This document shows, piece after piece, positions 3,082 through 42,944 of a stretch of DNA of 64,000 bases. The stretch spans positions 47,492,001 to 47,556,000 of the forward strand of contig JAZHRO010000039.1 in NCBI GenBank assembly GCA_037157565.1, written 5' to 3'. The notes beneath the pieces are model-generated. The model worked only from the letters and a program-made list of their open reading frames with translations, was not told the origin of the DNA and searched no databases. Numbering within the stretch: position 1 is the stretch's first letter; each line of letters begins with the position of its first letter. The DNA comes from Thalassia testudinum. Its lineage: Eukaryota > Streptophyta > Magnoliopsida > Alismatales > Hydrocharitaceae. The position numbers and the translations under genes are program-made.

Positions 3082-3140
3082 AGATGTCTGGGATGTTCAC
3101 TAGACATATGTCCAGATGTTTGGACAGAGAGCCAGACGTC
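3082..3140. repeat. Phased palindrome array in LTR
   Basis: Degenerate AGACGTC cores start at 3082, 3102, 3114 and 3134, giving intervals of 20, 12 and 20. Several cores show AGATGTC or AGACAT forms, as expected from loss of methylated CpG. Confidence 0.7.
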
Positions 3141-3489
3141 TGAAAACTCTTTTTCTTTTCGGCACGTACCATGGGCACGCCACTCTCTCGCCCACGCCTC
3201 ATGCCTCACCCTGCAACGACCTCACCCGCACCTTGTACCACTCCCTGCGACAGCCATCCCTCTCCCCTCACCTTCCCTCCCTTTATAATCCCCCTCCTCC
3301 TCTCTGTCTCATACCACCACAGCCAAGCGGGAGAGAGAGAGAGAGCAGGGAGCCAGAGTGAGAGCGAGCGGAGAGCGGAGAGCTGATCGCATCTGAGCGC
3401 GAGAGCGGAGGGCGTTGTGCTGTTTTGCTACAGCGCCTGCGGCGAGGAAAGACAGAGAGGTTCCGCGGAAGTCATTTTTCTGCGGAATC

Positions 3490-3548
3490 AGACGTCCGGG
3501 GCGACATCCAGATGTTTTACCGAACGTCCAAAGGTAGAATGAGACGTC
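3490..3548. repeat. Phased palindrome array in LTR
   Basis: AGACGTC-like cores start at 3490, 3510, 3522 and 3542, again 20, 12 and 20 apart. Confidence 0.7.
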
Positions 3549-3642
3549 TGATAGAGATCTATTTTCCGTATTTCTCCTCTGCCAAAGTCCTGACAGTGTA
3601 CGTATATGTGTCAGGAGTTGGAAGGCGGATCGAGGTAGTTTC

Positions 3643-3779
3643 AGACGTCCGGAAGCACCTCCAAACGTCTGACGAAACCCTTAGACATTGGCACTGTGTT
3701 CCAGACATCCGATAGAGGCGCCCTGAGAGAGGTATGCCTGAGAGTTGATTTAAGACATCTAGGATCTCTTCCAGACGAC
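3643..3779. repeat. Phased palindrome array in LTR
   Basis: Cores start at 3643, 3663, 3683 and 3703 (all 20 apart), then 3753 and 3773 (20 apart after a 50-base step). Forms seen are AGACGTC, AAACGTC, AGACATT, AGACATC and AGACGAC. Confidence 0.7.
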
Positions 3780-5527
3780 TGATTTCTGTCAGAACCCTTA
3801 TTTTTGGCCTCGTTCAAGGCCCAAACGATGTCGATTTTATGTAAATGAAACATCATTGTTTTTCGTACGAATTTCTTCACATAATGGTATCTTGTCTATA
3901 TCTTTTGGAATCCTTTTGACCTGTCCATCCACGTCTTAGGTCTCTAGTCCGTCGAGCGTACGGGACCTACGGAGACGTTGGGAGCTGTTATACGAGCCCC
4001 CATTCCCCCCAGTTATCCTAGTAGAGTGGTTCTAACAAATTCTTCAAGTTAATAAAATGCATACAATTAGTTAAAACCTAGGATGTGAGATGAATCCTAG
4101 GAAGAAATAAATGCATGCTCTAAAATACAGCTATTCAAGTAATCCCGAAGTTATGACATGAACACTAGGGATAGAGAAGACACATGTGTAGAAAGATGGA
4201 TGATTAAATAAATCATAAGCTTCCTATAATGAACTACATTAATGATAGAAAGAAAAAGAACTCGTACTGTGAAACAGAGATGCCTATTCTGTATGTAACA
4301 AACTAGATATGGAACAAAGAAAAGTTCATGTACGAACCCTACGGGGAATGTAGAATGAGATAAGAACACTGCCATACCAGAGAACCTGATGGTTCTGGAA
4401 TTGCCGCCCACGGGTGACCGTTAAGGGAAGTGAGCTGACCTTTGTATACATGGTACCAAAGAGAGCAACTATCCCTTGTAGTGTAGAGGGGAGCTTGCCG
4501 CCCTTGGGTTGAGACCCGCGGTGGATTTGGCCACTCTACATCGACTCTTGCTAGCCCTCGTGTACGTGGTACCGAGGTGAGCTACTTTGTGTAGGGGGGA
4601 GCTAGCCGCCCCATGGGGCTCGGGGTTAGGTATGGCCACCCTATACCGACTCTTATTAGCTCATTGGGCAAACCAGGATAGTCGGATGAGGGTACGCGGA
4701 CTGAGAAGGGGCGAGACCCCTATTCTGTTCTGTTTTGAGAGGGCAAGGCCCTATACTGTTCCGCGTTGTACGTTGAGGCGTACTCGCTAGCGGAAACGAC
4801 TGATTGCGTGCCAGTGCGGGGTAGCTACCCGCGTGCTAATCACGTGTGTCGTAGTCACCGCTACGTCTCGACCGTGACCTCAGGGTGGTAGACCGGGTGT
4901 AGAACTACCACGGAGAGACTCTCCTGGCCAGGAGAGTGCCACATGTTCATCCTACATCACGGAAAACTGCAAGCAAAATTGTTCCTTTAAGGAATAAGAA
5001 GATTAATGAGATGAACCCTGATTAGAGATCTCTACACAGAAAATCGTTATATGATAATTTTAATCGGAAAGTAATATGTTAATCTACCTGTTAAATGTAT
5101 TTTTATGTTAGCCATCACTCTACTCAGCATTAGCTGACTCCAGTTATATAATTTTGTACAGGTCAAGGATTTGAGTAGCCCGAGCTATCGACTGCTGAGG
5201 ACGCTGGGCCTAGTCAAGCCCAGCTGTAGTTTCTACTACTTGTTGTAGTGAGTTCCTGTAGTTACATTTTTTCATCACTTTCCGTTATGTTCTCTATCTG
5301 TACTAGTTCTATTGTGATGGCAGTATTCCTGTTCTTGAAGGCATGTAATATTCTAGAATTACTGTTCTTCATTGCCATTTTCTTTCTGCTTAGCTACTGT
5401 ACTTGTGTGGATGTGGATTGATGCATGTTATTTGGTTATCTCTCGTTGGACGACTGGGTCTTGGGATTAGTTCAGGCGAGCCGGTCTCGGGTCCTGTAGG
5501 GATCTGGGTTCAGGTCGTGACATCCCC

Positions 5528-5683
5528 CCTACACTAAAGTAAAGTAGCTCTCTTCGGTACCGTGTACTCGAGGGCCAGGTCACATTCCATACCCAAGTCC
5601 ATACAACCAACTAGCCTGTAGATAACACATTCCATCACACATCAGATTTCCATATCACCACATTTTGATTCCTTTCTTAGTTC
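5528..5683 (-). repeat. Old Tekay-type LTR, segment 2 of 3
   Basis: Continuation of the LTR begun at 2087, between the solo LTR to the left and the young Tekay element to the right. It holds the GTAGCTCTC(T)TCGGTAC block and ends TTAGTTC next to the CCCGT duplication, in the same order as the 5689 LTR. Confidence 0.7.
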
Positions 5684-7472
5684 CCCGTTGTAATGACCCG
5701 GTTCCCGAGTCCCTACGAGACACGAGAACCGGACCGACTCGACTAATCCCAAGACCTAGTCGTCCAACGAGGAAGTAACCAAAAGACAGTAAAATAAACC
5801 ACATTCAGCATGAATATAACTAACAGTAAGAAAGTACAGCAGTAAGGAAAGAAACTACTACAGTAGGTACCGCCACAACAGTAAAACAGCATTTATCATA
5901 TAACAAGAACTGCAGGTAAAGAAGGTACAGCGGAAACAAAAACTACTCACTAGAACAGAAACAAAAGGGGTACAAAAGGCTGTGGTACTCTACTGGACCC
6001 TACTCGGCCCAGCGTCCTCTGCAGCCGCCGACCCTGGCTGCTCAACACCTGGTCCTAAAAAAGGTAACGAGTGTAACACGTCAGCAAAACGCTGAGTAGA
6101 GTGGCAAACTAACTAAAGGCAACAGTAGAGTGTACAGTAGCTGTTATGTTTTATTACTTCCTTTATTCACATCTTTCAATTTTTCTCACTATTTCATTTA
6201 TTTCTCAGATCCTTTACTTGATCTCGAATGTCCTCGTGGGAACGATCTTGATTGCAGTCTTTTCCAAAAGTAGAAGTAGCACGTGGTGCTCTCCTGGCCG
6301 GGAGAGTCCCCCGTGGTGATCCTACCCTCAGTCAACCACCCCAAGGTCACTGACAGACGTAACGGTGACTACGGCACGCGCGATAAACGCACAGGTAGCT
6401 AGCCCGCACTGGCACGCGGTCAGTCGTTTCCGTTAACGGGTGCGCCCAAAGCACAGCACGGAACCAGGGTAGAGCCCTCTCAGTAACAGGGGTCCAACCC
6501 CTCCACAGTAACCAAACCGGGGCCTTGCCCCTCCACAGTCCGCGCACCCTCGCCTGACTACCCTGGTTTGCCCTAGTGGGCCTAACAAGTCGGTGAAGGA
6601 GGCTAGCAGAACCCCGGGGCCCGTGGGGTAGCTAGTACTCTCCTAACACTACTAGCTCTCCTCGGTACTACGTACACGAGGGCCAACAAGTCGGTACAGA
6701 GCGGCCAATCCTAACCCCGGGTCCCTGGGGCGGCTGGCCCCACTCTGCACTAAACAAGTACAGGTACTTCCCTTGGTACTGCGTACCCAAGAGACAGTAC
6801 AAACTACATCTCAGTTTCCATTCCTTTTTCTTTCCAGGAGTTCCACTCCTAATTCCCCGTAGGGTTCCAGCTATTTATCTCAGAACATCATATGTTTCAC
6901 TTTCCAGATTCACGTTCTCAAAAATCCATGATCTCAATCATGTTTCTTTATTCATAACAGACAGCTATTAATTCAAATTACAGGCAGCTTTATATTCCTT
7001 TCCATTTTTTTCCAAGACTGCAGTATTATACATTCCACTAGTTCTTCCATCCTAGGGTTCATGTCACATCCTAGGATCTAGCATACAACTAGTTTTCCAG
7101 CCCTAGGATTCATGCATCACCTAGGAGCTATCATTCCATACATTTCTCATTCCTAGGATTCATGCAATGTCCTAGCTTCTAGTTATGGTTCCATACTTTA
7201 ACAGATTTTATTAATAAACTTAAGCCACTCTACCAGGTACAACGGGAGTAATGGGGGCGTGATCGGGAATCCCGCGTGCCTCCGCGACTCTCAAGACTGC
7301 AACCGAACGAGGTCCTATCACAAGGATCAAACACAAGGAGTGTCTCAAAACAGTGTATAGCTACTGTAGACGAGTAGAGGAATTAATTCTGAAGAGAACG
7401 CAACTCGAATCGCGGAAAACGGAGCCCGAACGGGCCCTAAACGGGTCGAAAAAGACGATACTGTGCAAAATC

Positions 7473-7650
7473 AGACGTCTGGAACTCCCTCCAGACGTCT
7501 TAAACGGTGGATCAGAGAATTACCTGTTCAGCGTGGTTTCCCAGACGTCCAGAAGTCTGCAGGGATGTCTTTCCTAGATCCCAGACGTCCGATGGTCCCT
7601 CAGGACGTCTGGAGGTCACTCCCGCCGTCTGGTACAACTTCCAGACGTCT
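7473..7650. repeat. Phased palindrome array, six cores at 20-bp steps
   Basis: AGACGTC-like cores start at 7473 and 7493, then after a 50-base step at 7543, 7563, 7583, 7603, 7623 and 7643. The best units extend to the full palindrome CCAGACGTCTGG. The roughly 10 bases between cores differ from unit to unit. The same array is in the 5' LTR from 17877. Confidence 0.85.
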
Positions 7651-7753
7651 GATTCGCAAAAGATGGCGAATCAGCAAACCTGCGCACAGCCAACCCCCTC
7701 CCTCAGTACGATCAGTCGACAAGAAGGAAGAAGAAGGCGGAAACTCACCTTTC

Positions 7754-7812
7754 AGACGTCTGTATGATCTTACAGACGTCGACCTTGCCGTCTGGCTATC
7801 AATCCAGACGTC
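7754..7812. repeat. Phased palindrome array, 20-12-20
   Basis: Cores start at 7754, 7774, 7786 and 7806. The 20-12-20 layout is the same as in the arrays at 3082 and 3490. Confidence 0.8.
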
Positions 7813-8253
7813 TGATTCTGGAAATTTTTCCAGAATCAGGACCCTGCTCGGCCTCCGCTCGCGACGCCGCCCGCGTCGTACCTCGCGCTCCTGCTGCTCA
7901 GACCGCAGCAGGTCCCTCTCCGCGTCGCTCCGCGCCCCCTGCGCCCTCCGCCAGCCGGCCAAGCCGCTCCGGCGAGCTCGCCCCCACGGCAGAGCTCCGC
8001 CCTCGCACGCCGCACCTCCGCGCTCACTGCGGCCGCCGCTGCCGCCCTCGCGTCCGCTCGCTCTCGCGCACAGGAAGGAGAAGAAGAAGGAGGCGGTGGA
8101 GATGGGAGGGGAGGCGCGCCCCTTTTAACGCCGCGCGGAGAGGAGAGAGGAGGTGGCAGGCCGCCTGCAGCCGCAGAGAGAAAAAGGGGGAAAAAGCGGT
8201 CTGCGCGCTCAAGCGCGCAGGCGACTTGCGTGTGTCGAAAATAACGGATTTCC

Positions 8254-8337
8254 AGACGTCTTGAAACTATCCCAGACGTCTTATCAGACGTCTGGTTGTT
8301 ATCCCAGACGTCTTGTCCGACGTCTGAGCCAGACGTC
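8254..8337. repeat. Phased palindrome array next to LTR start
   Basis: Cores start at 8254, 8274, 8286, 8306, 8318 and 8331. The last interval is 13 because this copy lacks 19 bases present in the 5' LTR, where the run is fully regular. Confidence 0.85.
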
Positions 8338-8444
8338 TGGGGCACACATTCGTTACAATATGACAAACTCAAAGGAAGTTTCGTCCCCGAAACTTGCGCC
8401 AACTAGGGTGCGGGAAAAGATGTCCAAAAAAAATCATAACAAAC

Positions 8445-10508
8445 TCAAAGAGGACCGAAGCCGGTCCGAAAAGACGTACCCGCGAAAAGCTCCGGGTACC
8501 GCTCCCGCATTGCCGCCTCAGGCTCCCAGGTAGCCTCCTCGTACCGCTGGCTCCTCCACAAAACCTTTACCAGGGGTACTTGCTTTCGTCTCAACCTGCG
8601 GACGGCTCGGTCTAGGATCTGCACTGGCCGCTCGGGGTAGGTCAGGTCGTCGCTCACCTCGACGCTCTCGTGACTCAGTACGTGACTGGGATCGGCTACG
8701 TACTTCCTGAGGTTGGACACGTGGAACACGTCGTGCACACCAGAAAGCTGCGGGGGAAGGGCAAGTCTGTAAGCAACGGGTCCAACCCGCTCCAAGACCT
8801 CAAAGGGCCCCACGAACCTCGGCGCGAGCTTCCCTCTCACCCCAAACCGCTGTAAGCCCTTCATGGGCGAAACACGAAGGAAGACGTGGTCCCCAACCTC
8901 GAACTGCACCTCTCTGCGTCTGCGATCTGCGTAGCTCTTTTGTCTGCTCCTGACAGTGCGGAGTCGTCTGTGGATCTGCTCAACTACCTCCTGACTCTGC
9001 CGGATCAACCTGGGGCCAACCTCCCACTTGGTCCCCACCTCAACCCAACTCAAGGGTGCCGTGCATTTCCGTCCGTACAGAGCCTCGTAGGGAGCCATGC
9101 CGATGCTCGAGTGATAACTGTTGTTGTATGCAAACTCCGCCAGGGGCAGGTGCTCCTCCCAAGAGCCCCTCCAGTCTAGTATACAGGCACGCAAAAGGTC
9201 CTCAAGTGTCTGTATCGTGCGTTCCGACTGTCCGTCCGTCTGGGGGTGGTAAGCCGTGCTAAACCTCAACCTCGTCCCCAAGGCCTGCTGAAACTCAGCC
9301 CAAAACTGGGACGTAAAGCGGGTATCCCGGTCGGATACGATCTCCCGCGGAACTCCGTGTAGTCGCACCACATCACGGATATACCTCTCTGCCAACTGTG
9401 CTCGTCCCAAAGTGACTCGGATCGGCAAGAATCGTGCCGTCTTCGTCAATCTATCCACTATTACCCAGACTGCGTCGTGTCCTCGCTGGGTAACAGGTAA
9501 GCCCACCACCAAGTCCATGGTGATGCTCTCCCACTTCCACTCTGGCACTGGAAGCAGCTGAAGCGGCCCTGCAGGCCTCTGATGCTCGGCTTTCACCTGC
9601 TGGCACACTAAGCACTACTGCACGAACTCACCCACATCCCGTTTCATCCCTCTCCACCAGAACTCGCGTCTCAAGTCATGGTACATTTTCGTGTTTCCGG
9701 GATGTATGGTGAATCTGGAACCGTGTGCCTCAGTCAGGAGCTCTCTCAACAGCTCCTCGTCTCTGGGGACGCACAACCGTCCCCTCAAGCGTAACACCTG
9801 GTCTGTGAAAGAGAAGTCCCCTGGGTCCCCTGATAGTACTCTGTCGCGCAAAGACTGCAAGTACGGATAGGCCATCTGTCCCGTGATGATGCGGTCTATC
9901 AACTCTGGCCTGGTCTGCCGTGTCACCGTCACTGCCCCACAGTACCCTCGTAACTCTAGAGGTCGCCAACTGCCCACCTCCTCCAAAAGGCTCCAACTCT
10001 GTAACTGTAGACTGGCCAAGTGTGCGGGCGCCTTACGGCTCAAGGCGTCAGCCACCACATTGGCCTTTCCCGGGTGGTAGGAGATGCTGCAGTCGTAGTC
10101 CTTCAGGAGCTCCAACCAACGTCTCTGTCTCATGTTGAGCTCCTTCTGGTCAAAAAGATATCTGAGGCTCTTGTGATTTGTAAAAATCTCGAAGGTCTCA
10201 CCGTACAAGTAGTGCCTCCATGTCTTCAGCGCGAAGACAACAGCTGCCAACTCTAGATCGTGGGTAGGGTAGGTATGCTCATGGGGCTTCAGTTGCCGCG
10301 AAGCGTAAGCGACCACGTGACCCCTCTGCATGAGCACACCTCCTAACCCCTGCAAGGAAGAGTCCGTGTACACAACGAACCCGCCACTACTATCAGGGAT
10401 GGTGAGCACGGGAGCCGAGGTCAACCTCTCCTTCAGCTCCAGAAAACACGCCTCACAGGCGTCTGTCCAAGCGAAAGGCACATCCTTCCGGGTCAACTGT
10501 GTCATAGG
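8445..10508 (-). pseudogene. pol: Tekay polyprotein, C-terminal part: RNase H, integrase, chromodomain
   Basis: The polyprotein resumes here after the nested LTR. RNase H shows [17 protein letters not shown] and VVADALSRK. The block usually reading TDHKSL is TNHKSL (codon 10176-10178), so a catalytic Asp is replaced by Asn. Integrase shows the His pair of its zinc motif, then CLVC, catalytic-core blocks [17 protein letters not shown] and [10 protein letters not shown] (the D, D, E residues), and then the HVSNLRKY region. The last about 60 residues ([11 protein letters not shown] to MRERYPELF) form a chromodomain of the Tekay/Del type, thought to guide integration to heterochromatin. A single in-frame TAG at 9615-9617 lies directly before the zinc-motif Cys pair. 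The frame then runs open to 8445. Confidence 0.92.
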
Positions 10509-10753
10509 ACGCGTGTTCAAGGACGTTTCGTGCGGATTTAAAGCGTATTATGTTGTAGTATAACCGACAAAACGTTCGAACAAATACAAAGTTTTTATTA
10601 CTCGAAGACCGGAGTATCCGAGGTCGAACACAGGGAGCAAATGGAACTTACCACTAAATCAAAATGTAATTGAACACTCTAATTTACTCAAAATATCAAT
10701 TCAGGTATGAATGTATGCGATTAAAAGGAGTTAGGGCAAGAAAATATGAAATT

Positions 10754-10780
10754 GGACGTCTGATCACAAGATCAGACGTC
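10754..10780. repeat. Palindrome pair, 20-bp step, in Athila-like LTR
   Basis: GGACGTC at 10754 and AGACGTC at 10774. Together with the intervening GATC and GATC they form a 26-base inverted repeat with centre ACAA. In solo LTR B the centre reads TTGT, its reverse complement. Confidence 0.85.
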
Positions 10781-11332
10781 TTAAAAGCATTTCTCCTTTT
10801 CTTCTTGATTATTCTTCTTCTTCTGCTGCAGTTTTTGCTCTTTCTTTTCTTCTTCTAATCTCTGCAAAGTCTTCACTTGGCTTCTCTGTGCCTTTGCTTC
10901 TGGCTTGCTCTTTCCTTTCTTCTCCTGCGAAGGCTTCTTTCTTGCTTCTTCTTCTCTGCTGCAGTTTTTGCTCTTCTATTCTTCTCTGCCGTTCCTTCTT
11001 CTTTCCTTCTTTTCCTTCTCGCGGCCAAGTCCTTCTCCTGCGATCAGCTTGCCTGCACAGGAGCAAAACCTAACCCTTCTCCCTCTACCCGCGCGTCTCT
11101 CTCTCTCAAGCAATTCACTCAGACCGCTCTACCAGAGCCACAGTCTTAATCGGGTCGGATCGTACCCGGGACCAGGCGCACCTGCAGGTGTGTGATGCGC
11201 GAGGAGTGCGTAGGTCTAGGTCGGGTCGGATCCGCCAGGTCCGCGTGGTCAGGCCGCGGACGAGGCGGGTGGGGTCAGTGAGGGACCTCACCCCTGTGCT
11301 TTCGAGGCAGTAAACCTATATCACAAAAACTC

Positions 11333-11373
11333 TTTATACCATACCTGTGCCTTGAGATTCCACGATGTGGGAC
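11333..11373 (-). promoter_or_regulatory. snRNA-type USE plus TATA, 24-nt spacing
   Basis: Minus-strand GTCCCACATCG (11373-11363) matches the plant snRNA upstream sequence element RTCCCACATCG. TATAAA follows at 11338-11333 with 24 bases between. Activity is inferred only from motif and spacing. Confidence 0.6.
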
Positions 11374-13213
11374 TAAACGTTCCGCCCTTCCTTTGCGTGC
11401 GCCCGCAGACTCTCGTGTGCAATTGCCCACGCTGAAGGCCCTGCTGGTGCTCCTTGCTGAACTCAGTCACCTCGCAACACTTGCGAGAGTCTGCTGCACC
11501 TGCCGCCTGGGAAGCCTGACGCCTGCTGCTGCTCCAAGCTTCCTGCTGCTTCGGCTGTTAATGGCGGCCAGGGCGTTCACCTGAACTTCCTCAGAACGGC
11601 CTATTGGCCCAATTAGAATAGCTGGAAACCTTCGTCGTAGCACGGCGAAGGCGGTGGGTGATGCTGCAGGTTGCCGGTCGGCCTAGGCGTGCATGCCTAG
11701 GTCAACCTGTGGCCGGAGATGGTGGGTTGTTCGGGGGGTGGTTATGGAGGTCTGGAGTGGCAGTTGTGGGGTGGAGCGAGTTCCTGGTGGTGAGGCGGAG
11801 CTCACGAGGTGGTTGGCGAGCCGTGTGGAGTGGCGGAGTGGTGTGGGCGGCTCGCCGGAGTTCGGTCGGTGATGTGGAAGATGAGGGTGGTCAGCGTCGG
11901 TCGAGGGGTAATCAGATGAGATAACAGGGGGAAAAGAGAGAGGATAGGATGGAGAGGAGTTCTAACCTAATTGTAAGGACGAAAGGGGACAGAAGGCGGA
12001 CAGCAGTACTTGCTGTCGCCGGAGAAGATGACGCCCAGTGGGGGAGAACGGCGGCGACGACGGGGCTGAGGCGGCGTGCGCTGGTACTGCGCGACGCGGA
12101 GGGAGGTCAGGAAGCTAACTCTGCCACTGGTTTTGTGGCAGAGCGAAGAGGGAGGGGAGGGGGGCTCGCCGGAGCTAGCTGGGGCATTTGGCTGAGCAGG
12201 AGGAGAGGAATTGAAGGGGGAAACTCGGCCAAATCAAGCTCAGCCTCTTCGGCCGGAGTTGTGGGTTCTTATATAGGCGCTGGACTTGGTGTGCAGGGCG
12301 TGAAGGGCACGTAATTGCCTGAGGTTGGTCGCCGGAGATGGAAAGGAGTTAGGATACCCAAATCTCTCGTGCGTTCGCACGAGAGATTGGGTTCACACCA
12401 ACGATTGTAATTGACTTTATAAGGAAGGGAATTCCTCAGAGAATCCTCCTTCCATTTCTGGGAGGGAATCTCTGAGGGATTAGAGAGCAATCCCTCTCCG
12501 AACCTCGCCGGAGCTCGGTTCTGCCCTAGCAATGGCGGCAGGACCGGTTTGCAAAGGAGGCGAAGAACCTAGGGGGTTCTCTGCAACGGTATTCAAAAGA
12601 TAGGGACCAATTTGTGATTTGGGTGTACTAAATTGCAAAGTAGGTCAAGATGATCCCTCCTTAGGTCCAAATTTTGGTACAAACCTAATTTGGACCTAAG
12701 GAATCCAATGGAGAAGTTATATTTCAGGTTTGACCTCGTTTGACTGGATATTTTGCGTAAAAACCCAAATTAGGTTAATTGAAGAGCTAGGACCCTAATC
12801 TAGGTCAAACTAGGTTCCAAAGGCCAAATTAAGTGTTCTAAACCCTAGAGTATGTTTTTCCATGATTTGTAGAGGGTTTACTTGCTTTTTGTTCTGACCG
12901 AAACCTTGTTAATTTAAGCGGGTCTGTTTTAGGGTTACCAAGTGTCTTTTAGTTCTTAGATTGCACATGAACCCATTTCTGATTGACTCAACCCACTTTT
13001 TATCTCATTTAGACCATTTGACCTATGTTTTGCCTCTAAGAAATCCTGTTTATCTACTGCAATGGTAAAATTGCAGTTTTAACCTTTATTTCATGTTTTC
13101 TTCTCAGAGCACTTGTTCCTTCAGTTAGGCCTTCTTCTAGGTTATGTAGGAGCTTTTATCTTCTTTATTGGGTCAAAATGAGCTAGTTATGGCTCATGAT
13201 GAGGCTCTCATCA

Positions 13214-14863
13214 ACGCGCAATCTGTGAAAATCCTCTGATGAACCGTCTGTAGTAACCTGCCAGTCCCAGGAAACTGCGAATCTCAGTGACTGAACGCTG
13301 TCTCTCCCACCTGAGCACTGCCTCGACCTTGGCGGGATCCACCGCCAGGCCGTCTCCAGAGATCACATGACCCAAAAAGGTCACCTCCCTCAACCAGAAC
13401 TCGCACTTGCTGTATTTGGCGTACAGCCTGCGTCGTCTCAGAGTGTCCAGAACCATCCGCAAGTGTTGTCCGTGCTGCGTCCGATCTCTAGAATAGATGA
13501 GTACATCATCTATGAAAACCACCACAAACTGATCCAAGTACGGTCTAAACACCCGGTTCATCAGGTCCATGAAAGCAGCGGGGGCATTGGTCAGCCCAAA
13601 CGGCATGACCAAAAACTCGTAGTGTCCGTACCGGGTGCGGAAAGCTGTCTTGGAGACGTCGGTCTCCCTGATCCTCAACTGGTGGTATCCAGACCTCAAG
13701 TCGATCTTGGAAAACACCGTGGCACCCCGCAACTGGTCAAACAAATCGTCGATCCTCGGCAGCGGATATCTGTTCTTGATGGTGACCCTATTCAGCTGTC
13801 GGTAGTCCACACAAAGGCGTAGGGTCCCATCCTTCTTCTTCACAAACAGCACCGGGGCTCCCCAGGGAGACGCACTGGGCCTCACGAAACCTTTCTCCAA
13901 AAGGTCCTGCAACTGAGACTTGAGCTCTCGCAACTCAAGCGGTGCCATCCTGTATGGCGCAGTGGAGATGGGGCTGGTCCCTGGTACTAGTGAGATCTCA
14001 AACTCGATCTCACGCTCGGGCGGTAGTCCTGGTAACTCGTCTGGAAACACGTCGGGGTACTCTCTGACCACCGGGATGCTCTGGAAGTCTGCCACGGGGC
14101 TGTGCTCTGCCACCACACAAGCTAGGAAGCCCTCACACCCCTGGCTCAAAAGTCTCGCCGCCCGAAGTGCCGAAATGCACCTAAAACCTCCGTCCACTGG
14201 CTGCCCGTGAAACTCGAAAGAAGGCAACTCCGGAATGGAGAAGACAATCTTCCTCTCAAAACAGTCTACCAAGGCGTGGTAAGCGGACAGCCAATCCATC
14301 CCCAGAATCACTCCAAAGTCCTCCATCTGTATCATGATCAGGTCAGCTGGCAGGCTATGTCCCCCGATGCTGACCCCGCAACCCGTGTACACCTCCTCAG
14401 CTACGAACAGCTGACCACTCGGACCTCTGATTACGAACGGATTCTCTAACAGTGTATAATCCTGGTCCAAACTAACTGCAAAACTGGCTGCGACAAACGA
14501 GTGCGTAGCGCCGGAATCGAAAAGCGTGTAAACGAGTCTGCCAGAAACTGAAACCATACCTGCTACCACGGATCCCGATGCTCTGGCGTCCCTGTGTGTT
14601 AGGGCGTTGATACGCCCCTCAGCTCTAGGTGCGGACGAAGCAGCCACACTCTGCGTCGGACGGGTAGGTGCTGGCCGGTACCCTCCTCGCGACTGCTGTC
14701 CTCCTCCTCGTGCCTGGGAACCGCGGCCTCCTGCGCGCCCTCCAGTGCTCTGCGCGGGAAGTATCTGCTGACCTCCTGCCCTAGATGGGCAGTCCCTCCT
14801 GACGTGGCCCGGCTGGCCACACTGGTAGCAGAGGGGAACCCGACTCCCGCCCTCAGTGAGTCC
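13214..14863 (-). pseudogene. pol: Tekay polyprotein, middle part: zinc knuckle, protease, reverse transcriptase
   Basis: Open frame following the first TAG. The zinc knuckle [14 protein letters not shown] (C-x2-C-x4-H-x4-C) is at 14830-14789. The retropepsin active site FDSGATHSF has its Asp at about 14518. RT begins around [13 protein letters not shown], contains the [15 protein letters not shown] and [10 protein letters not shown] blocks, and has the catalytic [11 protein letters not shown] with the two Asp codons at 13505-13510. It then reaches the connection segment [12 protein letters not shown]. The frame is cut at 13213 by solo LTR A. Subtracting that LTR and one ACGCG copy keeps the same reading frame into the RNase H part. 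Confidence 0.92.
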
Positions 14864-15913
14864 CTATTGTCGGCTAGGCGGGGGTCCGGTGCTGGCGACT
14901 GGCCCCTGTCGAGGGCCCCCAAAGGCCATTGATGGCCCTGCACAACGTGACGGCTCTCCTGCGGACGCCACGTGTCTCCGTTCTCGCCGGCCCTGTGAGA
15001 AGTCTGGCTGAAAGGGCCTCTTCCGCCCGCCGTCGGTCTCTCGCGCGGACGGGTTGGTCTCCTCGTAAGTCATAGCTGCCTCTACCACCCTCGAAAACGT
15101 CGGCAGCTTCAGGGGTTTGACATACCCCCGGATCGCAGGCCGGAGCCAATCGGTGAACCTCCAAAGGCGCTCCTCCTCAGTGGCTACCGCTGTCGCTGCA
15201 AAGCGGAACAGCTCCAAGAAACGCGTGCGGTACGCACTCACGGTCATCGTCCCTTGGCGGAGAGTGTGGAACTCCCGCCTCCTCTGGTCCTGCCACGTCT
15301 GGGGAAAGTACTGCTCGCAGAAGAGGGTGACGAACTGGTCCCACGTCGGCTCGTCCCTCTCCTGACCCCGGACCGCCCTCCACCACCGGTGTGCCGCACT
15401 CTCCAGCTGGTACGTGGCAAAGGCCACGCGGCACTCCACCGGGGGGCGAAGGGTGTCGAAGATCTTCTCCAGCTGCTCAAGCCAGTCCTCTGCCTCGGTC
15501 GGGTCCTCATCCCCCTTGAAGGAGGGGGGCTTCAGCTTCCGGAACTGTCCGAAAAGCTCGAAGTGGCGCTGTAGGGGAGGTGCTGGTGCACCTCCAGGCG
15601 AAGGTGCCTCGTGTATAGAAGTGTCGGAGGAAGGTGGGGGTGGCAGGGGCCCATCCCCTCCCTCGTGTCCAGCGCCGCGTCCGTCGCGTGGTCCCACAGA
15701 GGACTCCCCCTCTGCAACCCCAGGAGGAGGTGCTCGGGGTGGTGGGTGGAGCTCCTCTCGTACAATATCCCGTATCAGTATGGCGAGGTCCTGGGCCTGG
15801 ATGCCAGGGAGTGGTGGCTGGTCCACCGAGACGTCAACGACAGCACGTCCACCTCGCCGACCTCGCCCTCGGCCACGCCCGCGGCCAGTCTCGCCAGTCC
15901 CGCGACGAGGCAT
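14864..15913 (-). pseudogene. gag: Tekay gag, N-terminal part, ending in an in-frame TAG
   Basis: The start is the ATG at 15913-15911 (MPRRGTGETGRGRG), about 160 bases downstream of the primer-binding site; an upstream in-frame extension has no ATG. The first about 35 residues are Gly/Arg-rich, followed by a Pro-rich linker. The conserved Retrotrans_gag domain runs from LKPPSFKGDEDP through WLEQLEKIF, WDQFVTLFCEQYFP and TVSAYRTRFLELF. A TAG at 14864-14866 (CAA TAG GGA) ends this stretch after 349 residues, yet the same frame continues directly into the zinc knuckle. The simplest reading is one nonsense mutation. Programmed readthrough is possible but unsupported by the downstream context I can see. 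Confidence 0.88.
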
Positions 15914-16073
15914 CTTCTGCAAGGAGACGCGAAACAAAACGGAAACGTCAAAACAAACGGTACCTAATAAAACCTCTAAGAGCTCATGTCAAGAGACATG
16001 TTGTGGTGGCTACTCTAGCTATAAACATGTGAATTGGTTATTTTCCAGTCAGTTGATTCACTTCTCGGGACGA

Positions 16074-16092: not shown

Positions 16093-18123
16093 TGTAACCA
16101 CCCGGTTCCCGAGTCCCTACGAGACACGAGAACCGGACCGACTCGACTAATCCCAAGACCTAGTCGTCCAACGAGGAAGTAACCAAACGACAGTAAAATA
16201 AACCACATTCAGCATGAATATAACTAACAGTAAGAAAGTACAGCAGTAAGGAAAGAAACTACTACAGTAGGTACCACCACAACAGTAAAACAGCATTTAT
16301 CATATAACAAGAACTGCAGGTAAAGAAGGTACAGCGGAAACAAAAACTACTCACTAGAACAGAAACAAAAGGGGTACAAAAGGCTGTGGTACTCTACTGG
16401 ACCCTACTCGGCCCAGCGTCCTCTGCAGCCGCCGACCCTGGCTGCTCAACACCTGGTCCTGAAAAAGGTAACGAGTGTAACACGTCAGCAAAACGCTGAG
16501 TAGAGTGGCAAACTAACTAAAGGCAACAGTAGAGTGTACAGTAGCTGTTATGTTTTATTACTTCCTTTATTCACATCTTTCAATTTTTCTCACTATTTCA
16601 TTTATTTCTCAGATCCTTTACTTGATCTCGAATGTCCTCGTGGGAACGATCTTGATTGCAGTCTTTTCCAAAAGTAGAAGTAGCACGTGGTGCTCTCCTG
16701 GCCGGGAGAGTCCCCCGTGGTGATCCTACCCTCAGTCAACCACCCCAAGGTCACTGACAGACGTAACGGTGACTACGGCACGCGCGATAAACGCACAGGT
16801 AGCTAGCCCGCACTGGCACGCGGTCAGTCGTTTCCGTTAACGGGTGCGCCCAAAGCACAGCACGGAACCAGGGTAGAGCCCTCTCAGTAACAGGGGTCCA
16901 ACCCCTCCACAGTAACCAAACCGGGGCCTTGCCCCTCCACAGTCCGCGCACCCTCGCCTGACTACCCTGGTTTGCCCTAGTGGGCCTAACAAGTCGGTGA
17001 AGGAGGCTAGCAGAACCCCGGGGCCCGTGGGGTAGCTAGTACTCTCCTAACACTACTAGCTCTCCTCGGTACTACGTACACGAGGGCCAACAAGTCGGTA
17101 CAGAGCGGCCAATCCTAACCCCGGGTCCCTGGGGCGGCTGGCCCCACTCTGCACTAAACAAGTACAGGTACTTCCCTTGGTACTGCGTACCCAAGAGACA
17201 GTACAAACTACATCTCAGTTTCCATTCCTTTTTCTTTCCAGGAGTTCCACTCCTAATTCCCCGTAGGGTTCCAGCTATTTATCTCAGAACATCATATGTT
17301 TCACTTTCCAGATTCACGTTCTCAAAAATCCATGATCTCAATCATGTTTCTTTATTCATAACAGACAGCTATTAATTCAAATTACAGGCAGCTTTATATT
17401 CCTTTCCATTTTTTTCCAAGACTGCAGTATTATACATTCCACTAGTTCTTCCATCCTAGGGTTCATGTCACATCCTAGGATCTATCATACAACTAGTTTT
17501 CCAGCCCTAGGATTCATGCATCACCTAGGAGCTATCATTCCACACATTTCTCATTCCTAGGATTCATGCAATGTCCTAGCTTCTAGTTATGGTTCCATAC
17601 TTTAACAGATTTTATTAATAAACTTAAGCCACTCTACCAGGTACAACGGGAGTAATGGGGGCGTGATCGGGAATCCCGCGCGCCTCCGCGACTCTCAAGA
17701 CTGCAACCGAACGAGGTCCTATTACAAGGATCAAACACAAGGAGTGTCTCAAAACAGTGTATAGCTACTGTAGACGAGTAGAGGAATTAATTCTGAAGAG
17801 AACGCAACTCGAATCGCGGAAAACGGAGCCCGAACGGGCCCTAAATGGGTCGAAAAAGACGATACTGTGCAAAATCAGACGTCTGGAACTCCCTCGAGAC
17901 GTCTTAAACGGTGGATCAGAGAATTACCTGTTCAGCGTGGTTTCCCAGACGTCCAGAAGTCTGCAGGGACGTCTTTCCTAGATCCCAGACGTCCGATGGT
18001 CCCTCAGGACGTCTGGAGGTCACTCCCGCCGTCTGGTACAACTTCCAGACGTCTGATTCGCAAAAGATGGCGAATCAGCAAACCTGCGCACAGCCAACCC
18101 CCTCCCTCAGTACGGTCAGTCGA
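16093..18123 (-). repeat. 5' LTR of the Tekay element, 3' part
   Basis: Near-identical to 5689-7695; I count roughly a dozen substitutions by eye. It is interrupted after GTCGA at 18123 by solo LTR B and continues at 20844. Confidence 0.92.
17877..18055. repeat. Phased palindrome array (5' LTR copy)
   Basis: Copy of the array at 7473-7650 with the same 20-base steps (first cores 17877 and 17897). Single-base changes against that copy include AGGGATGTC to AGGGACGTC. Confidence 0.8.
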
Positions 18124-18365
18124 TGTTCACGGCCGTTTCGTGCGGATTTAAAGCGTATTATGTTGTAGTATAACCGACAAAACGTTCGAACAAATACAAA
18201 GTTTTTATTACTCGAAGACCGGAGTATCCGAGGTCGAACACAGGGAGCAAATGGAACTTACCACTAAATCAAAATGTAATTGAACACTCTAATTTACTCA
18301 AAATATCAATTCAGGTATGAATGTATGCGATTAAAAGGAGTTAGGGCAAAAAAAAATATGAAATT

Positions 18366-18392
18366 GGACGTCTGATCTTGTGATCAGACGTC
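18366..18392. repeat. Palindrome pair with inverted centre
   Basis: GGACGTC at 18366 and AGACGTC at 18386, 20 apart. The centre TTGT is the reverse complement of ACAA in solo LTR A at the same place, with identical flanks. Confidence 0.85.
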
Positions 18393-18957
18393 TTAAAAGC
18401 ATTTCTCCTTTTCTTCTTGATTATTCTTCTTCTTCTTCTTCTGCTGCAGTCTTTGCTCTTTCTTTTCTTCTTCTGATCTCTGCAAAGTCTTCACTTAGCT
18501 TCTCTGTGCCTTTGCTTCTGGCTTGCTCTTTTCTTTCTTCTCCTGCAAAGGCTTCTTTCTTGCTTCTTCTTCTCTTGCCTTGTTTCTTCCTCTTCTATTC
18601 TTCTCTGCCGTTCCTTCTTCTTTCTTTCTTTTCCTTCTCGCGGCCAAGTCCTTCTCCTCCTGCGTTCAGCCTGCCTGCACAGGAGCAAAACCTAACCCTT
18701 CTCCCTCTACCCGCGCAACTCTCTCTCTCAAGCAATTCACTCAAACCGCTCTCCCAGAGCCACAGCCATAATCGGGTCGGATCGTACCCGGGACCAGGCG
18801 CACCTGCAGGTGTGTGATGCGCGAGGAGTGCGTAGGTCTAGGTCGGGTCGGATCCGCCAGGTCCGCGTGGTCAGGCCGCGGACGAGGCGGGTGTGGGGTC
18901 AGTGAGGGACCTCACCCCTGTGCTTACTGAGGCGATAAGAGTAAAACACAAAAACAA

Positions 18958-18998
18958 CTTATATGGTACCTGAGGGTTGAATTCCCACGATGTGGGAC
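18958..18998 (-). promoter_or_regulatory. snRNA-type USE plus TATA, 24-nt spacing
   Basis: Minus-strand GTCCCACATCG (18998-18988), then TATAAG (18963-18958), 24 bases between. The module is kept although it lies inside the tract most diverged from solo LTR A. Confidence 0.6.
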
Positions 18999-25522: not shown

Positions 25523-25527
25523 ATTTT

Positions 25528-37297: not shown

Positions 37298-38971
37298 TGT
37301 TGGTGCTAGAGCACCACGATCATTTGTTTTGATGATAACAAAAAACGTGTCATTTAACATTTGTACTTGGAGTCTTAGATTTCAGGATAATTGCAAATGG
37401 AGACGTGATTAGACAAAGTTCGAGCTCGCATCCAGGACGGATTGGAGGAGCTTGATGGAGAACAGAAGAGATTCGCGAGGAGCGATATATTAAAGAAGGA
37501 AGGAGATGAAGAATAGGATAGATTTTCTTCTCTTGTACTCGTATTTTTCGTTTCTTTTGTTGCTCTTTATTTTTGTTACTTAGATTCATGTTAAAGAGCC
37601 TCAAAGTACCCTAACAGTAGTCCGAGGAACACCGGCACAACCCTAGGATACTTAGGTTTTCTGTAGAGAACTTAGAAAACCAATATAGGGTTCAAACATC
37701 ATTTCTAGACGTCTAATTCAAAAATCAGACGTCTGATACTGTGTTTTAAGATAACAATTAGGCTGGACATAGTTATTCTGTTTGATGAAATCAGACGTCC
37801 AGACCATAGTCCAGACGTCTTAGAAGACGTCTGATGACTTTGCCAGACGTCCAATTAGTGGACCGTTGGCTCTCTTAGCATGCACTCAAGGATATGACAG
37901 TTAGAGCCTTACCAGACGTCCTTAAGCCTTTCCAGATGTCTGATAATTGACCGTTTTGCCTCGACTGACCCGAAAATCTCTTCTCAGAGATTTTCTAGCC
38001 GTTGCAAATCCATTCCCACGAAAAAGTAGGTTTCCAGACGTCCAGACATAGTGCTAGACGTCCTGTATGTCGTTTGATGGATTTGCGCTAGAACCCTGTT
38101 TAGATCTGATTCAAGTCAGGAAGAGACCCGCCCAAAATCAGACGTCTGACCTTATTTTCAGACGTCTTAAAGTGGTCTTCCAGACGTCTGATACCAGAAT
38201 TAGACGTCTGATTACCCTGTCAATGCAATCATTGTCCCTGATTTCGGCTTGATTCTCTTGGGCTTTGCACCCAACGGCTATGGAAGCTTTCCTAAGCCTT
38301 CCAAAGCCTTCCTAAGACCTCTATAAATAGAGGGGAGCCTTTGCACACTAAGATACACCCAAGCAACATACTTTCCACTCTTTTGTGTCCAAAAAGAAGC
38401 CCTTGCTCTCCAAGCTCAAGTTCTACATTTAGAGAGCATCAAGCTATTTTGCGCACCCACTCTCCCGCCATAGTTCACGAGAGCGACGTTGCGCCGTCGG
38501 GTGGCTCATGCACCCGCGTCATCAATTCGACGCACTCCTTGCAAATGGGAGTTTCCTAATTCCTATAGAAGCTAGGTTTAAATTACTTTGTTGGCTCTAT
38601 AGGATTATTTGTTATTTTATCTTTGTTATTTCGTTGGGTATTCGCTTTGCGAATTCCCATCTCCTTCGTGGGACAAAATCCTTCTCGTGAAGAGAAGGGG
38701 TTGAGGAACGCTACCCTCGCACTTGTAGCGTGGTTGTAATTGAGGTTGAATCACCCTCGTTTAAATGATTCGGTTAGTGGATTTGATCAACTTGGTTGAT
38801 CGGAAAATCCTAACTCGAGAGTGTTAGGTGGTGGTTTTCACCAGGTTTGGGTTTCCACCTAAAAATTATTGTGTACATTGTCTGTTTGTTTATTTTGTGA
38901 GATTAGTATTTTTTCAATTCCGCATTTTTTACATCACGCTGATCTCACCCCCTTCGAGTAGGGAAATCACA
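37298..38971 (+). mobile_element. Solo LTR, copia type, TSD CTTTT
   Basis: A 1674-bp LTR from TGTTGGTGC to GGAAATCACA between perfect CTTTT duplications (37293-37297 and 38972-38976). The start holds a palindrome TGGTGCT/AGCACCA. Core TATA CTATAAATAG is at 38321-38330, and the palindrome arrays lie 110-615 bases upstream. I class it as Ty1/copia, probably SIRE/Maximus-like, from the LTR start and TTTTGATGATAAC block; no internal domain is attached to prove it. Confidence 0.82.
37707..38208. repeat. Phased palindrome arrays in the copia-type LTR
   Basis: AGACGTC-like cores start at 37707 and 37727 (20); 37793, 37813, 37825 and 37845 (20, 12, 20); 37914 and 37934 (20); 38036, 38044 and 38056 (8, 12); 38140, 38160, 38182 and 38202 (20, 22, 20). 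This is the same core and spacing as in the Tekay-type LTRs, in an unrelated lineage, upstream of the TATA box. Confidence 0.85.
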
Positions 38972-39436: not shown

Positions 39437-39477
<41 letters not shown>

Positions 39478-39636: not shown

Positions 39637-39663
39637 AGTCGTCTGATACACAGACCCGACGTC
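39637..39663. repeat. Palindrome pair, 20-bp step
   Basis: AGTCGTC at 39637 and CGACGTC at 39657, in LTR D, about 380 bases from its 3' end. Confidence 0.65.
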
Positions 39664-40046
39664 TGATCACTATAGCATTCAAGTTACTGTTGGGTTATTT
39701 GGAATAATTGGGATATTTGTGATGCATGCTTAGAGGGCTTATATAGTGATCTTAATCACCATTTTTTGTGCTTCTCTTTACTTTTTATCTCTAGATACAT
39801 TATCTTCATTGAATATTTAATGTAACAGATTAATATTCATTGAAATATCTTTACAGTACCTCGTTTATTGTGCTCATTTGTATTTTAATTAAAGATTAGC
39901 ATGTGAATTCTTATTTGCTCCCTGTGTTTGACCTCGGATTTTCTTGACGACCTTTCAAGTTATAAATTGTATTTGTCTGAATGCATTTGACCTATACTAC
40001 AACTCATATCTTAAATAAAGACGAATTCGCGCAATAAACATATTGT

Positions 40047-40426
40047 AGCAAGCGATAGTTAAGTCGTCTGATTCTCAAATCAAATGTCTGATCACTGTTC
40101 ATTTATTTAACATAATTTAGTTGATATATATGTGTTTAGACTAATAATTGGTGATTCAAATCACCATTATTTTATCTTAGATATCTTTTTGTCCTCTTTA
40201 ACTCTTGAAATACATTGAGCATCATTGAATATTTAATGTAACAGGTTAATATTCATTGAATATCATTATTGTACTTATTTCTGCGCTCATTTATATAAAG
40301 ATTAGTTTGTGAATTTTTATTTGCTTCCTATGTTCGACAACGGACTTCATTTAGATATTCGAGTTATAAATTGTATTTGTTGAAGAACTATTTGTCAATT
40401 GTACTACCACACATTTCTCTAATGTT
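40047..40426 (+). repeat. 3' LTR remnant of the Athila-like element, part 2
   Basis: Resumes after LTR D with TAGCAAGCGATAG and contains a palindrome pair (cores 40063 and 40083, 20 apart), GTGATTCAAATCACC, TTGCTTCCTATGTTCGAC and a terminus near GTACTACCACA or GCCCTGTCA. It looks like a tandem copy of 39620-40041 because the inner LTR inserted just before the homologous point. The exact end and target duplication are not resolved. Confidence 0.7.
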
Positions 40427-41218
40427 GATGAAAAGCCCTGTCAACTAGCCTTCGCAGCGAATTGAGAGGGCTCCACGTGATTCGAATTGGAATCATCCCT
40501 TCATAAACGCAGCGCAAAACCATTGAGCCACGTCATCGAGTGTGTCACACTTTTGAATTAAGGCTCGCACGCTCTCAGCCGTTAGATGGACATCCAATGG
40601 TAGAGATCACACAGACCTTAGCATTCAGCGAGTGTGCAGCACTGGCAAAGGATGACATGGAGCATTCACAGTCATTGGATCAAGATCCAACAGCTGAGAA
40701 CAAGGCTTCTTTGATGAGTAGGAGGAGCATCGATGGCTTTGGGTGGCTTGGATGGCACCACTTGATGCTATCTGGATCGTCCGTCTTCAAATGCTCATAA
40801 ATAGTGCCATGGACATCGGATTGAATCGATTTTCACGCCGTTGGGCTGCAATCGTCAATTCAAACCCATCCATGCAGTTGGATTTATTGTTTGAAGTCAG
40901 GATTTTCACCACCTTGCCCATTTGCCTCTGATTTTTCTCGAACTACATCTGATGTTACAGAGGTCTGATCAGGGCAATCTCAGAGGTATTGGAATCCAAT
41001 CATTGCCCTAATCAGATCCGTATGGTTGGATCTTCAATCCGAGGCCCAGATAAATATCATCCCGTCCCTTGACCACAATAAGAGGCGAATTACTATAAAA
41101 TTTGTACAAATTAATCTAAATGCATGATGATGCATGTTATGTAATATTTATAATGCATGATACCTCTATAATACAAGGAACATGCATAAATATACATTTT
41201 AAGCCAATTAGATGTATG
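40427..41218. other. No gene recognised
   Basis: Moderately GC-balanced sequence with no credible ORF. A TATA-like CTCATAAATAG at about 40795 and phrases such as ATGGACATCCAATGG suggest an LTR or promoter fragment, but no family is assigned. Confidence 0.35.
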
Positions 41219-41223
41219 CACAT

Positions 41224-42944
41224 TGAAAGTTCCCTACTTGGAGGGGTGACGTAATAATATGCGGAAATAAAATATAAAGCAATCTCACAAAAATAAATCA
41301 CAAAATGTACACAGGTATTTTTAGGTGGAAACCCAAACCGGGTGAAAACCACCACCTAACCCTCTCGAGTTAGGATTTTCCGATCAACCAAGTTGATCAA
41401 AATCCACTAAACGAATCACTTTAAACGAGGGTGATTCAACCTCAGTACAACCACGCTACAAGTACGAGGGTAGCGTTCCTCAACCCCTTCTCTCCACGAG
41501 AAGGATTTTGTCCCACGAAGGAGACGGGAATTCGCAAAGCGAATACCCAACCAAAATACAAAGATAAAATAAAACAACAGTCCTATAGAGCCAACAAAAT
41601 TAAACCTAGCTTCTATAGGAAATAGGAAACTCCCCTTTGCAAGGAGTGCGTCGACGATGACGCGGTGCGTGTGCCACGCGATGGCGCTACGTCGCTCTCG
41701 TTATCAACGCCGGGAGAGCGGGTGCGCAACGGTTGAATGCTCTCAAGAAAATGGAGCTTGAGCTTTGAGAGCAAGAGAGTCTTTTCTTTAGACACAAAAG
41801 GTTTGAAAGTGTATTGCAAGGTGTGTGTCTTAGTGTGTATATGTCTCTCTAGGTGTGTATGTCTTGTCTATTTGTGTTACAAAGGTTCCCCTCTATTTAT
41901 AGAGGCCTTAGGAAGGTTTTGGAAGGCTTGGAAAAGCTTCCATAGCCGTTGGGTGCAAAGCCCAAGAGAATCAGGCCGAAATCAGGACAATGATTACTTT
42001 TGACAGGGTTATCAGACGTCTAACTCTGGCATCAGACGTCTGGAAGGCCACTTTAAGACGTCTGATTCCAAGGTCAGACGTCTGATTCTATGCGGGTTTC
42101 TCCCTGACTTGAATCAGATCTAAACAGGGTTTTTGTGCAAGTCCATCAGACGACATACAGGACGTCTGGCACTAAGTATGGACGTCTGGAAACCTACTTT
42201 TACTGTGGGAATTGATTTCCAAACGTTGCAACGGCTAGAAAATCTCTGAGAAGAGATTTTGGGTCAGCCGAGGCAAAAACGGTCATTTATCAGACGTCTG
42301 TAAAGTCCTATGGACGTCTGATAAGGCTCTAACGGTCATATTCTTGAGTGTCTTCTAAGCCAGCCAACGGTCCACTAATTGGACGTCTGGCAAAGTCATC
42401 AGACGTCTCCTAAGACGTCTGGTCTAAGGTCTGGACGTCTGAATTCATCAGACAGAACTAACTATGTCCAGCCTAACAGTTATCAGACGTCTGAAACAAC
42501 AGTCAGACGTCTTAAAATACTTTATCAGACGTCTGGAAATGCTGTTTGAGCCCTATATTGGTTTTCTAAGTATTCTACAGAAAACCTAAGTATCCTGGGG
42601 TTGTGCAGGTGTTCCTAGGACTACTTTTAGGGTACTTTGAGGCTCTTTAACATAATGTTCTAAGGAATCAAAAAGAGCAAGAAAATAAATACAAGAGATA
42701 CATGAAAGGATAAAAAAGAATCTATCCTATTCTTCTTGTCTTCCATCTCCAATCTTTCGCTCCACGCGAACCTCCTTTGTTTTCCGTCAAGCTCCTCCAA
42801 TCCGTCCTGGATGCGAGCTCGAACTCCGTCTAAACACGTCCTCATTTGCAATTGACCTGAAATCTAGGACTCAAATTGCAAATGTTAAATAACACGTGTT
42901 TTGTTATCATCAAAACAAATGATCATGGTGCTCTAGCACCAACA
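41224..42944 (-). mobile_element. Solo LTR, copia type, inverted, TSD CACAT
   Basis: A 1721-bp relative of 37298-38971 in the opposite orientation, between perfect CACAT duplications (41219-41223 and 42945-42949). Its minus-strand start is TGTTGGTGCTAGAGCACCA. The terminus at 41224 reads TGAAAGTTCCC where the other copy gives TGTGATTTCCC. Core TATA (minus) is near 41904-41895. Divergence from the other copy is clear, so the two are separate insertions. Confidence 0.85.
42014..42533. repeat. Phased palindrome arrays in the second copia-type LTR
   Basis: Cores start at 42014, 42034, 42056 and 42076 (20, 22, 20); 42148, 42160 and 42180 (12, 20); 42292 and 42312 (20); 42381, 42401, 42413 and 42433 (20, 12, 20); 42485, 42505 and 42527 (20, 22). 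Confidence 0.85.

Follow-up and report, generated by a model that had tools for sequence, protein, structure and literature searches.

Retrotransposon lineages of the window

The window analysed here is a 64-kb stretch of the genome of Thalassia testudinum (assembly GCA_037157565.1, 4.26 Gb in 237 contigs; contig JAZHRO010000039.1, positions 47,492,001 to 47,556,000). It is rich in long terminal repeats (LTRs) of three retrotransposon lineages, namely a chromovirus, a short family that appears to be of the copia type with Sirevirus hallmarks, and a probable Athila/Tat-type family (Table 1). All three carry the palindromic core AGACGTCT. We show here that these cores form pairs exactly 20 bp apart, which often stack at 12 or 22 bp, and that in chromovirus and copia LTRs the resulting arrays lie upstream of the TATA box.

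Table 1. Retrotransposon features and core arrays of the window (positions in the window; strand as + or -, with a point where none applies).
Feature	Position	Strand	Remarks
Decayed 20-12-20 group (offsets 0, 20, 32, 52) near chromovirus-related LTR sequence	3082..3141	.	middle cores decayed
Second decayed 20-12-20 group, same stretch as the 3082 group	3490..3549	.	middle cores decayed
Two more 20-bp pairs, 3643/3663 and 3753/3773	3643..3780	.	
Chromovirus (Tekay-type) 3' LTR	5689..8357	-	outer flank CCCGT recurs after 21500 (target-site duplication)
Array, pair 7473/7493 and 20-bp ladder 7543-7643	7473..7650	.	core scan
20-12-20 group	7754..7813	.	core scan
20-12-20-12-13 array at LTR 5' end, 32-bp units	8254..8338	.	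core scan
Chromovirus coding region (gag, protease, RT, RNaseH, integrase with chromodomain)	8445..15988	-	split by solo LTR
Athila/Tat-type solo LTR inside chromovirus pol region	10514..13213	- (orientation inferred)	target-site duplication ACGCG; pair 10754/10774
Chromovirus 5' LTR, first part	16093..18123	-	array 17877-18054
Second Athila/Tat-type solo LTR, in chromovirus 5' LTR	18124..20838	-	target-site duplication GTCGA; pair 18366/18386
Chromovirus 5' LTR, second part	20844..21500	-	20-12-20 groups at 20878 and 21378-21481
Solo LTR of gag-only Sirevirus-type copia family	37298..38971	+	target-site duplication CTTTT; TATA at LTR position 1024
Array, seven 20-bp pairs	37707..38209	.	one 20-12-20 group at 37793
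Single 20-bp pair, Athila-like LTR fragment	39637..39664	.	lineage label provisional
Second solo LTR of the same copia family, inverted	41224..42944	-	target-site duplication ATGTG
Array, seven 20-bp pairs	42014..42534	.	one 20-12-20 group at 42381

The original prediction had assigned the arrays to three unrelated lineages, and this assignment is borne out by a different marker in each of them. The chromovirus (Ty3/gypsy) carries a chromodomain (PF00385) at the C-terminus of its integrase (E 3.2e-6; 27.4 bits, cut-off 25.1); the subclade name Tekay is that of the original prediction. A further stretch of the window is related to its LTR (2689-2915 is 76% like 6238-6465). In protein searches gag relatives (20 matches) reach at most 42% identity over 17-57% of the query, and the reverse transcriptase (RT) matches that cover at least 97% of the query, among 120 listed of 7,958, are 42-59% identical. 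The named protein relatives of the LTR elements are found in flowering plants.

For the family of the LTRs at 37298 and 41224 the copia label was withheld on the LTR ends alone and accepted once gag, primer binding site and polypurine tract (PPT) were found. The internal part encodes a copia-type gag (Retrotran_gag_2, E 2.1e-8 and 1.6e-9). The string TGGTATCAGAGC, which we take to be an initiator-Met primer site, lies within a few bases of the LTR end in the genomic stretches L013 and L017, and CACCCCC close to the LTR end forms a C-rich signal near the LTR 3' end. The 3' junction of L013 (7600-7700), inspected by eye, reads GGGGAGAT/TGTTGG, an AT/TG attachment site after the terminal PPT, with an upstream PPT copy GGGGGAGG and inverted-repeat arms TTTTGTCATCATCAAAA / TTTTGATGATAACAAAA. 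This single junction agrees with the description of Sirevirus junctions in print (PMC2829016), taken without the exact PPT octamer. The CGG-CCG core signature of repeated Sirevirus motifs was not found in this family, in which the core is AGACGTCT. Thus, gag, primer site and junction point to a copia family with Sirevirus hallmarks, present without pol in the copies seen. Between the LTRs of these copies there are only about 1.5-2.1 kb (1.5 kb in L013 and L017, 2.1 kb in L015), encoding gag alone, and RT and integrase would seem to come from a partner. In L013 (4594-9363) and L017 (957-5866) LTRs of about 1.7 kb enclose about 1.5 kb, whose gag pieces include a coiled coil and an Arg-rich tail. 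A search with the gag protein gave two matches, both on short JGI contigs. Between two LTRs of this family L015 (2421-3422) has a 334-residue open frame that gave no Pfam match; its residues 167-334 are 85% like the L017 gag frame, and its first 166 are unexplained.

The solo LTRs that invaded the chromovirus appear to be of the Athila/Tat type, judged from a primer site and from gene order. A relative of these LTRs spans 22839 to about 25.5 kb and is followed at 25527 by TGGCGCCGTTGCC, presumably an Asp-type primer string; the LTR preceding it is 67% like 11063-13213, its end being placed by inference. In L024, an LTR of this family lies beside RT, RNaseH and integrase in Ty3/gypsy order.

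Exact spacing of the core pairs

The core coordinates given in the original prediction hold (7754/7774/7786/7806, 8254 onward, 37793/37813/37825/37845, 42381/42401/42413/42433, 10754/10774 and 39637/39657), as do the 20-bp steps from 7543 to 7643, in which 7563 and 7623, like 7786 in the neighbouring group, have two mismatches. At up to one mismatch to AGACGTCT the window contains 98 cores, 78 of them inside arrays, and 100 dinucleotide shuffles in each of seven tested regions produced no 20-bp pair. At up to two mismatches there are 303 sites, and their distances include 46 at 20 bp, none at 19 and one at 21 bp, along with 15 at 12 bp and 22 at 32 bp; a third stacking distance beside 20 and 12 is 22 bp. 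Among symmetric groups of the form a-b-a, in which each distance was allowed to range over 9-30, 20-12-20 has the top score (9), followed by 20-20-20 (8), and all others reach at most 3. The nine 20-12-20 groups come from five distinct places (3082, 3490, 7754, 8254 and 37793), the remaining ones being counterparts in sister LTRs or a neighbour within one array; the predicted sharing of this group by Tekay-type and copia-type LTRs was found. At the chromovirus LTR end the array consists of 32-bp units (20 + 12) with differing spacers, and sister LTRs differ from each other by one unit, so that arrays change by whole units.

The pair rather than the single core looks like the unit, since across 153 related pairs the outer flank is A/T-rich and the inner flank starts with G-R. 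In the same pairs, read on both strands, the first core position is A at 0.86, G at 0.10, C at 0.03 and T at 0.00, in cores taken at up to one mismatch, by which TGACGTCA itself would be excluded. That the cores sit on one face of the DNA, as had been proposed, is only roughly right, because at 10.5 bp per turn 20 bp make 1.9, 12 bp 1.14 and 32 bp 3.05 turns.

The same spacing is found throughout the genome. The pattern CAGACGTC-N8-12-CAGACGTC has 160,485 forward and 160,143 reverse matches, compared with 139 and 156 for the reversed pattern that served as control; forward and reverse counts are not additive, because a full palindromic pair matches both strands. Gaps of 8-11 account for only 822 forward and 875 reverse matches (control 132 and 144), hence about 99.5% of the pairs have a gap of 12, which corresponds to 20 bp. 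The gap 8-11 pairs are about six times as frequent as their control; several of the listed ones have what appear by eye to be 1-base deletions of common 12-base spacers and look like decayed copies.

Genome-wide counting covered gaps 8-12, and larger gaps were counted in an unselected sample of 19 stretches of 10 kb (190 kb), whose places were picked blind to arrays; L013-L015, fetched at known arrays, were kept out of it. The 207 cores of this sample form 68 pairs at 20 bp, 18 at 12 bp and 33 at 32 bp, and no pair at any of the neighbouring distances (19 and 21, 11 and 13, 31 and 33 bp). At least one 20-bp pair occurs in 10 of the 19 stretches and none in the other nine. In the first 15 stretches AGACGTCT is the commonest of the 256 eight-base palindromes (82 occurrences, the next having 18) and no other has more than a single 20-bp pair (22 for AGACGTCT). 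In the 162.7 kb that BLAST did not assign to any of the three LTR families, core density matches chance (65 cores, 58.7 expected), although nine pairs, in four stretches, still lie there. The spacing of the window is thus also that of the genome, at 20 bp within gaps 8-12 and at both 20 and 12 bp in the unselected sample.

No sign of a recent transfer of arrays

The same core and the same 20-12-20 group in two superfamilies could reflect a recent passage of one array from LTR to LTR, through recombination or template switching, followed by chance retention. A segment moved in this way would have left matching spacers, of which there is no trace. BLAST between the three families returned the arrays and short stray matches only. 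Spacers of the chromovirus and of copia resemble each other no more than shuffled spacers do (156 of 200 and 100 of 200 shuffles reached the best identity observed), while spacing and cores match. This level of likeness does not support a recent move, and retention by chance fits neither the conservation of core and distance nor the genome-wide exactness of the 12-base gap. We regard a recent transfer as very unlikely. The arrays may go back to an old exchange followed by turnover of the spacers.

Conservation of cores and distance

Nine copies per family were compared, with columns classed by one copy and the remaining copies compared with each other; two divergent copies (one from L018, one from L029) and partial or overlapping copies were left out. 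In the copia family substitutions per site amount to 0.031 in cores, 0.164 in spacers, 0.124 between pairs and 0.101 in the rest of the LTR, and in the chromovirus to 0.061, 0.166, 0.136 and 0.065, respectively, so that cores and spacers differ in the same direction in both families; the comparisons are not independent, given the kinship of the copies and the repeated use of each pair. When each set is enlarged by one divergent copy and cores are defined by majority, the core and spacer values are 0.066 and 0.203 (copia) and 0.068 and 0.184 (chromovirus). The 20-bp distance never changes where both core starts are aligned (528 of 528 copia and 418 of 418 chromovirus comparisons), whereas control windows of 20 bp have an unchanged length in 4771 of 5508 and 8235 of 9827. 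Other members of the families thus preserve the spacing while the spacer bases vary, as had been claimed. CpG is kept in 896 of 979 cases in copia cores versus 1194 of 1489 elsewhere, and in 709 of 806 versus 5485 of 6772 in the chromovirus. An alignment of the two window copies (9 of 115 core and 26 of 96 spacer differences) is inflated by a misaligned first block (37707-37727 versus 42485-42527), and the nine-copy comparison is the better figure.

These data also bear on a neutral origin of the arrays, by minisatellite growth or quasi-palindrome correction. Tandem units of 32 bp and an inverted spacer (see below) do exist, but a neutral repeat should lose both cores and distance, with CpG of the core decaying first, while here spacers have diverged by about 16% and cores by 3-6%, with the distance unchanged where both cores are present. 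A purely neutral lattice is thus hardly credible.

In 15 of 15 LTR copies (nine copia, six chromovirus) the array cores lie wholly upstream of the TATA box, ending 110-490 bp before it.

Arrays as putative enhancers

We consider it rather probable that the arrays are enhancers of LTR promoters, read by one factor that binds as a dimer of dimers. In the cis-regulatory unit two palindromes, about YCAGACGTCTGR, would have their centres at exactly 20 bp from each other. Each such pair would be bound by two DNA-binding dimers in a rigid assembly, which would activate transcription, and units stacked 12 or 22 bp apart would add sites. A distance fixed at 20 bp while the spacer sequence varies freely points to contact between two bound protein dimers more than to a stem of RNA or DNA. 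The factor would most likely be a host transcription factor, for which a C-box-binding bZIP protein is a first guess, made from the ACGT centre. Since the array would drive their transcription, the chromovirus and Sirevirus-type lineages could each have acquired or retained it.

Several observations weigh against this interpretation. In the chromovirus, cores (0.061) have diverged no less than LTR sequence beyond the array (0.065), and they stand out as conserved only in comparison with spacers (0.166) and the sequence between pairs (0.136). Gap rates in core and spacer columns are 0.042 and 0.056 versus 0.016 in the rest of the copia LTR, and 0.084 and 0.080 versus 0.037 in the chromovirus; we read this as whole units coming and going, which makes single units dispensable or subject to turnover. 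The core lacks TGACG, so that TGA factors are not an obvious fit and are unlikely by sequence. Furthermore, in Athila/Tat LTRs the pair follows the three TATA-like strings of that orientation instead of preceding them, at about 220-255 bp from the LTR 3' end. Of the Athila-like pairs that had been proposed, the positions are correct, but the Athila-type site is a single pair near the LTR 3' end and not an array. The Athila-type pair may be a different thing from the upstream arrays. Ten Athila-like or unassigned single sites (window 10754, 18366, 25271, 39637 and 40062, the last with two mismatches in its second core; L024 1695; L023 916; L014 5272; L026 1614 and 8814) were lined up by eye, nine having the 20-bp distance and one (25271) 21 bp.

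The spacers of the pairs at 10754-10781 and 18366-18393 stand in opposite orientation (GATCACAAGATC / GATCTTGTGATC), possibly by hairpin-loop inversion. Such a flip would be expected if the pair were a nucleic-acid hairpin, in RNA or extruded DNA, with the self-complementary cores and two to three inner bases as stem and a loop of 6-12 nt. In the 153 pairs, taken without correction for relatedness, complementarity at inner spacer positions 1, 2 and 3 exceeds that of shuffles (0, 1 and 3 of 500 reach the observed value). With one representative per group a weak signal, made up of several pair types, is left at positions 1 and 2 only (13.1 and 10.3 of 22 groups versus 8.0 and 5.8; z about 2.2 and 2.3); position 3 shows none after grouping, and positions 0 and 4-5 show no excess in either test. 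A hairpin should also accept 19 or 21 bp, and it does not need palindromic arms. One-sided core variants are mostly uncompensated: of 164 pairs, 33 have an edge variant in a single core, 13 have complementary and 9 non-complementary double edge variants, 51 have none and 58 have others. Maize Sirevirus palindromes are reported, in the text covered, as structured regions rich in small RNAs (PMC10760457), which would suit a hairpin. On balance a hairpin seems improbable to us, and protein binding to the paired palindromes remains the preferred explanation.

The arrays could instead address a trans-acting anti-silencing factor, encoded by an element or domesticated and exploited by other lineages, in the manner of the VANC motifs in VANDAL elements. 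They resemble the VANC21 motif arrays described for Arabidopsis (PMC5735166) in being dense arrays of short motifs in non-coding element DNA, seemingly growing by tandem units, here the 32-bp chromovirus units with diverged spacers. However, the motif described there, YAGTATTAY, is non-palindromic, arrayed in the same orientation, confined to one family of a DNA transposon and, according to the same source, rare in other elements (PMC5735166). Gene content also speaks against such a factor: no candidate gene for an array-binding protein was found in the few copies read, the chromovirus copy L022, if the flanking LTRs are its own, leaves no more than about 0.65 kb outside these LTRs and its one open frame, and the gag-only copia copies seen gave no second gene, with the 166 residues of the L015 frame unexplained. 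We judge this anti-silencing address to be quite improbable, somewhat more so than the hairpin. A bolder but unlikely idea is that one element lineage encodes or has captured a single trans-acting factor, which recognises the double palindrome in its 20-bp phase and determines the chromatin state at about 10^5 sites. Chromoviruses, Sirevirus-type and Athila/Tat elements would then have evolved the same address independently, which would tie unrelated transposons into one regulatory network.

Relation to known palindromic arrays

The original prediction knew of no description of such an array. Arrays of this kind are, however, in print. Sirevirus LTRs are described as carrying palindromic boxes, at least eight per element, in the upper LTR half upstream of the TATA box, where they form CpG islands (PMC2829016). 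The same section gives a CGG-CCG signature for 12 of 13 elements, calls the motifs Sirevirus-specific and absent from classic (non-Sirevirus) elements, and lists GTCGGACGTCCGAC for the element Usier (PMC2829016). The arrays described here share with them the palindromic motifs upstream of TATA, and the Usier motif contains GGACGTCC. They differ in that the published section gives no fixed spacing, and in that a Ty3/gypsy chromovirus shares them here. In maize, the palindrome CACCGGACNNNGTCCGGTG occurs in structured regions of Copia and Helitron elements, again one palindrome in two transposon superfamilies of one genome, and such arrays are viewed there as cis-regulatory (PMC10760457); its sequence is another one, and the text covered mentions no exact spacing. 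Given these Sirevirus and maize reports, as far as their text was covered, the kind of array is already known. What is new about the present arrays is that their spacing is exact and that different superfamilies share them.

Paired ACGT palindromes are also familiar from the as-1 element. Its palindrome centres lie 12 bp apart, the second distance in our arrays, the main distance here being 20 bp. Like the pairs described here, as-1 combines two ACGT palindromes at a set distance that two dimers can bind, in its case dimers of TGA bZIP factors, according to the part of the source covered (PMC9360754). It differs in its pentamer, the core AGACGTCT having no TGACG, and as-1-like pentamers were accordingly not found. 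A report on preferred ACGT spacers of gene promoters has, in the portion covered, neither GACGTC nor a C-box nor 20 bp (PMC3622567). Among the literature matches listed for the exact strings CAGACGTC/GACGTCTG all were unrelated by title, and neither the exact 20-bp distance nor the sharing between chromovirus and Sirevirus-type elements was found in searches of an open-access library.

Two unrelated retrotransposon superfamilies thus use one spacing grammar, which is exact in more than 99% of about 160,000 pairs per strand (gaps 8-12). This grammar makes it testable what palindromic LTR arrays bind and whether unrelated transposons need the same factor. A host activator would be a vulnerability shared by elements abundant in this genome, and an element-encoded factor would represent a new anti-silencing system.

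Other features of the window and genome

A scan of viral contigs for the three-core pattern gave four contigs with a G+C content of 0.63-0.71 and without the lattice, and these matches are put down to chance. The window contains a full-length match to the plant small nucleolar RNA R71 (27063-27170, minus strand; 43.1 bits, cut-off 40), flanked by Athila-type LTR sequence, and a predicted tRNA-Ser (anticodon aga) at 59755-59845 on the plus strand. Matches to matK occur at 115 places of the genome, three of them over the whole model; one 70-codon matK-like stretch is found with the same score in 33 contigs, and one open copy of 509 residues is of the plastid type. Finally, L028 (417-3251) has an open frame of 945 residues with RVT_1 and zf-RVT, searched in two pieces, belonging to an element of the LINE type.

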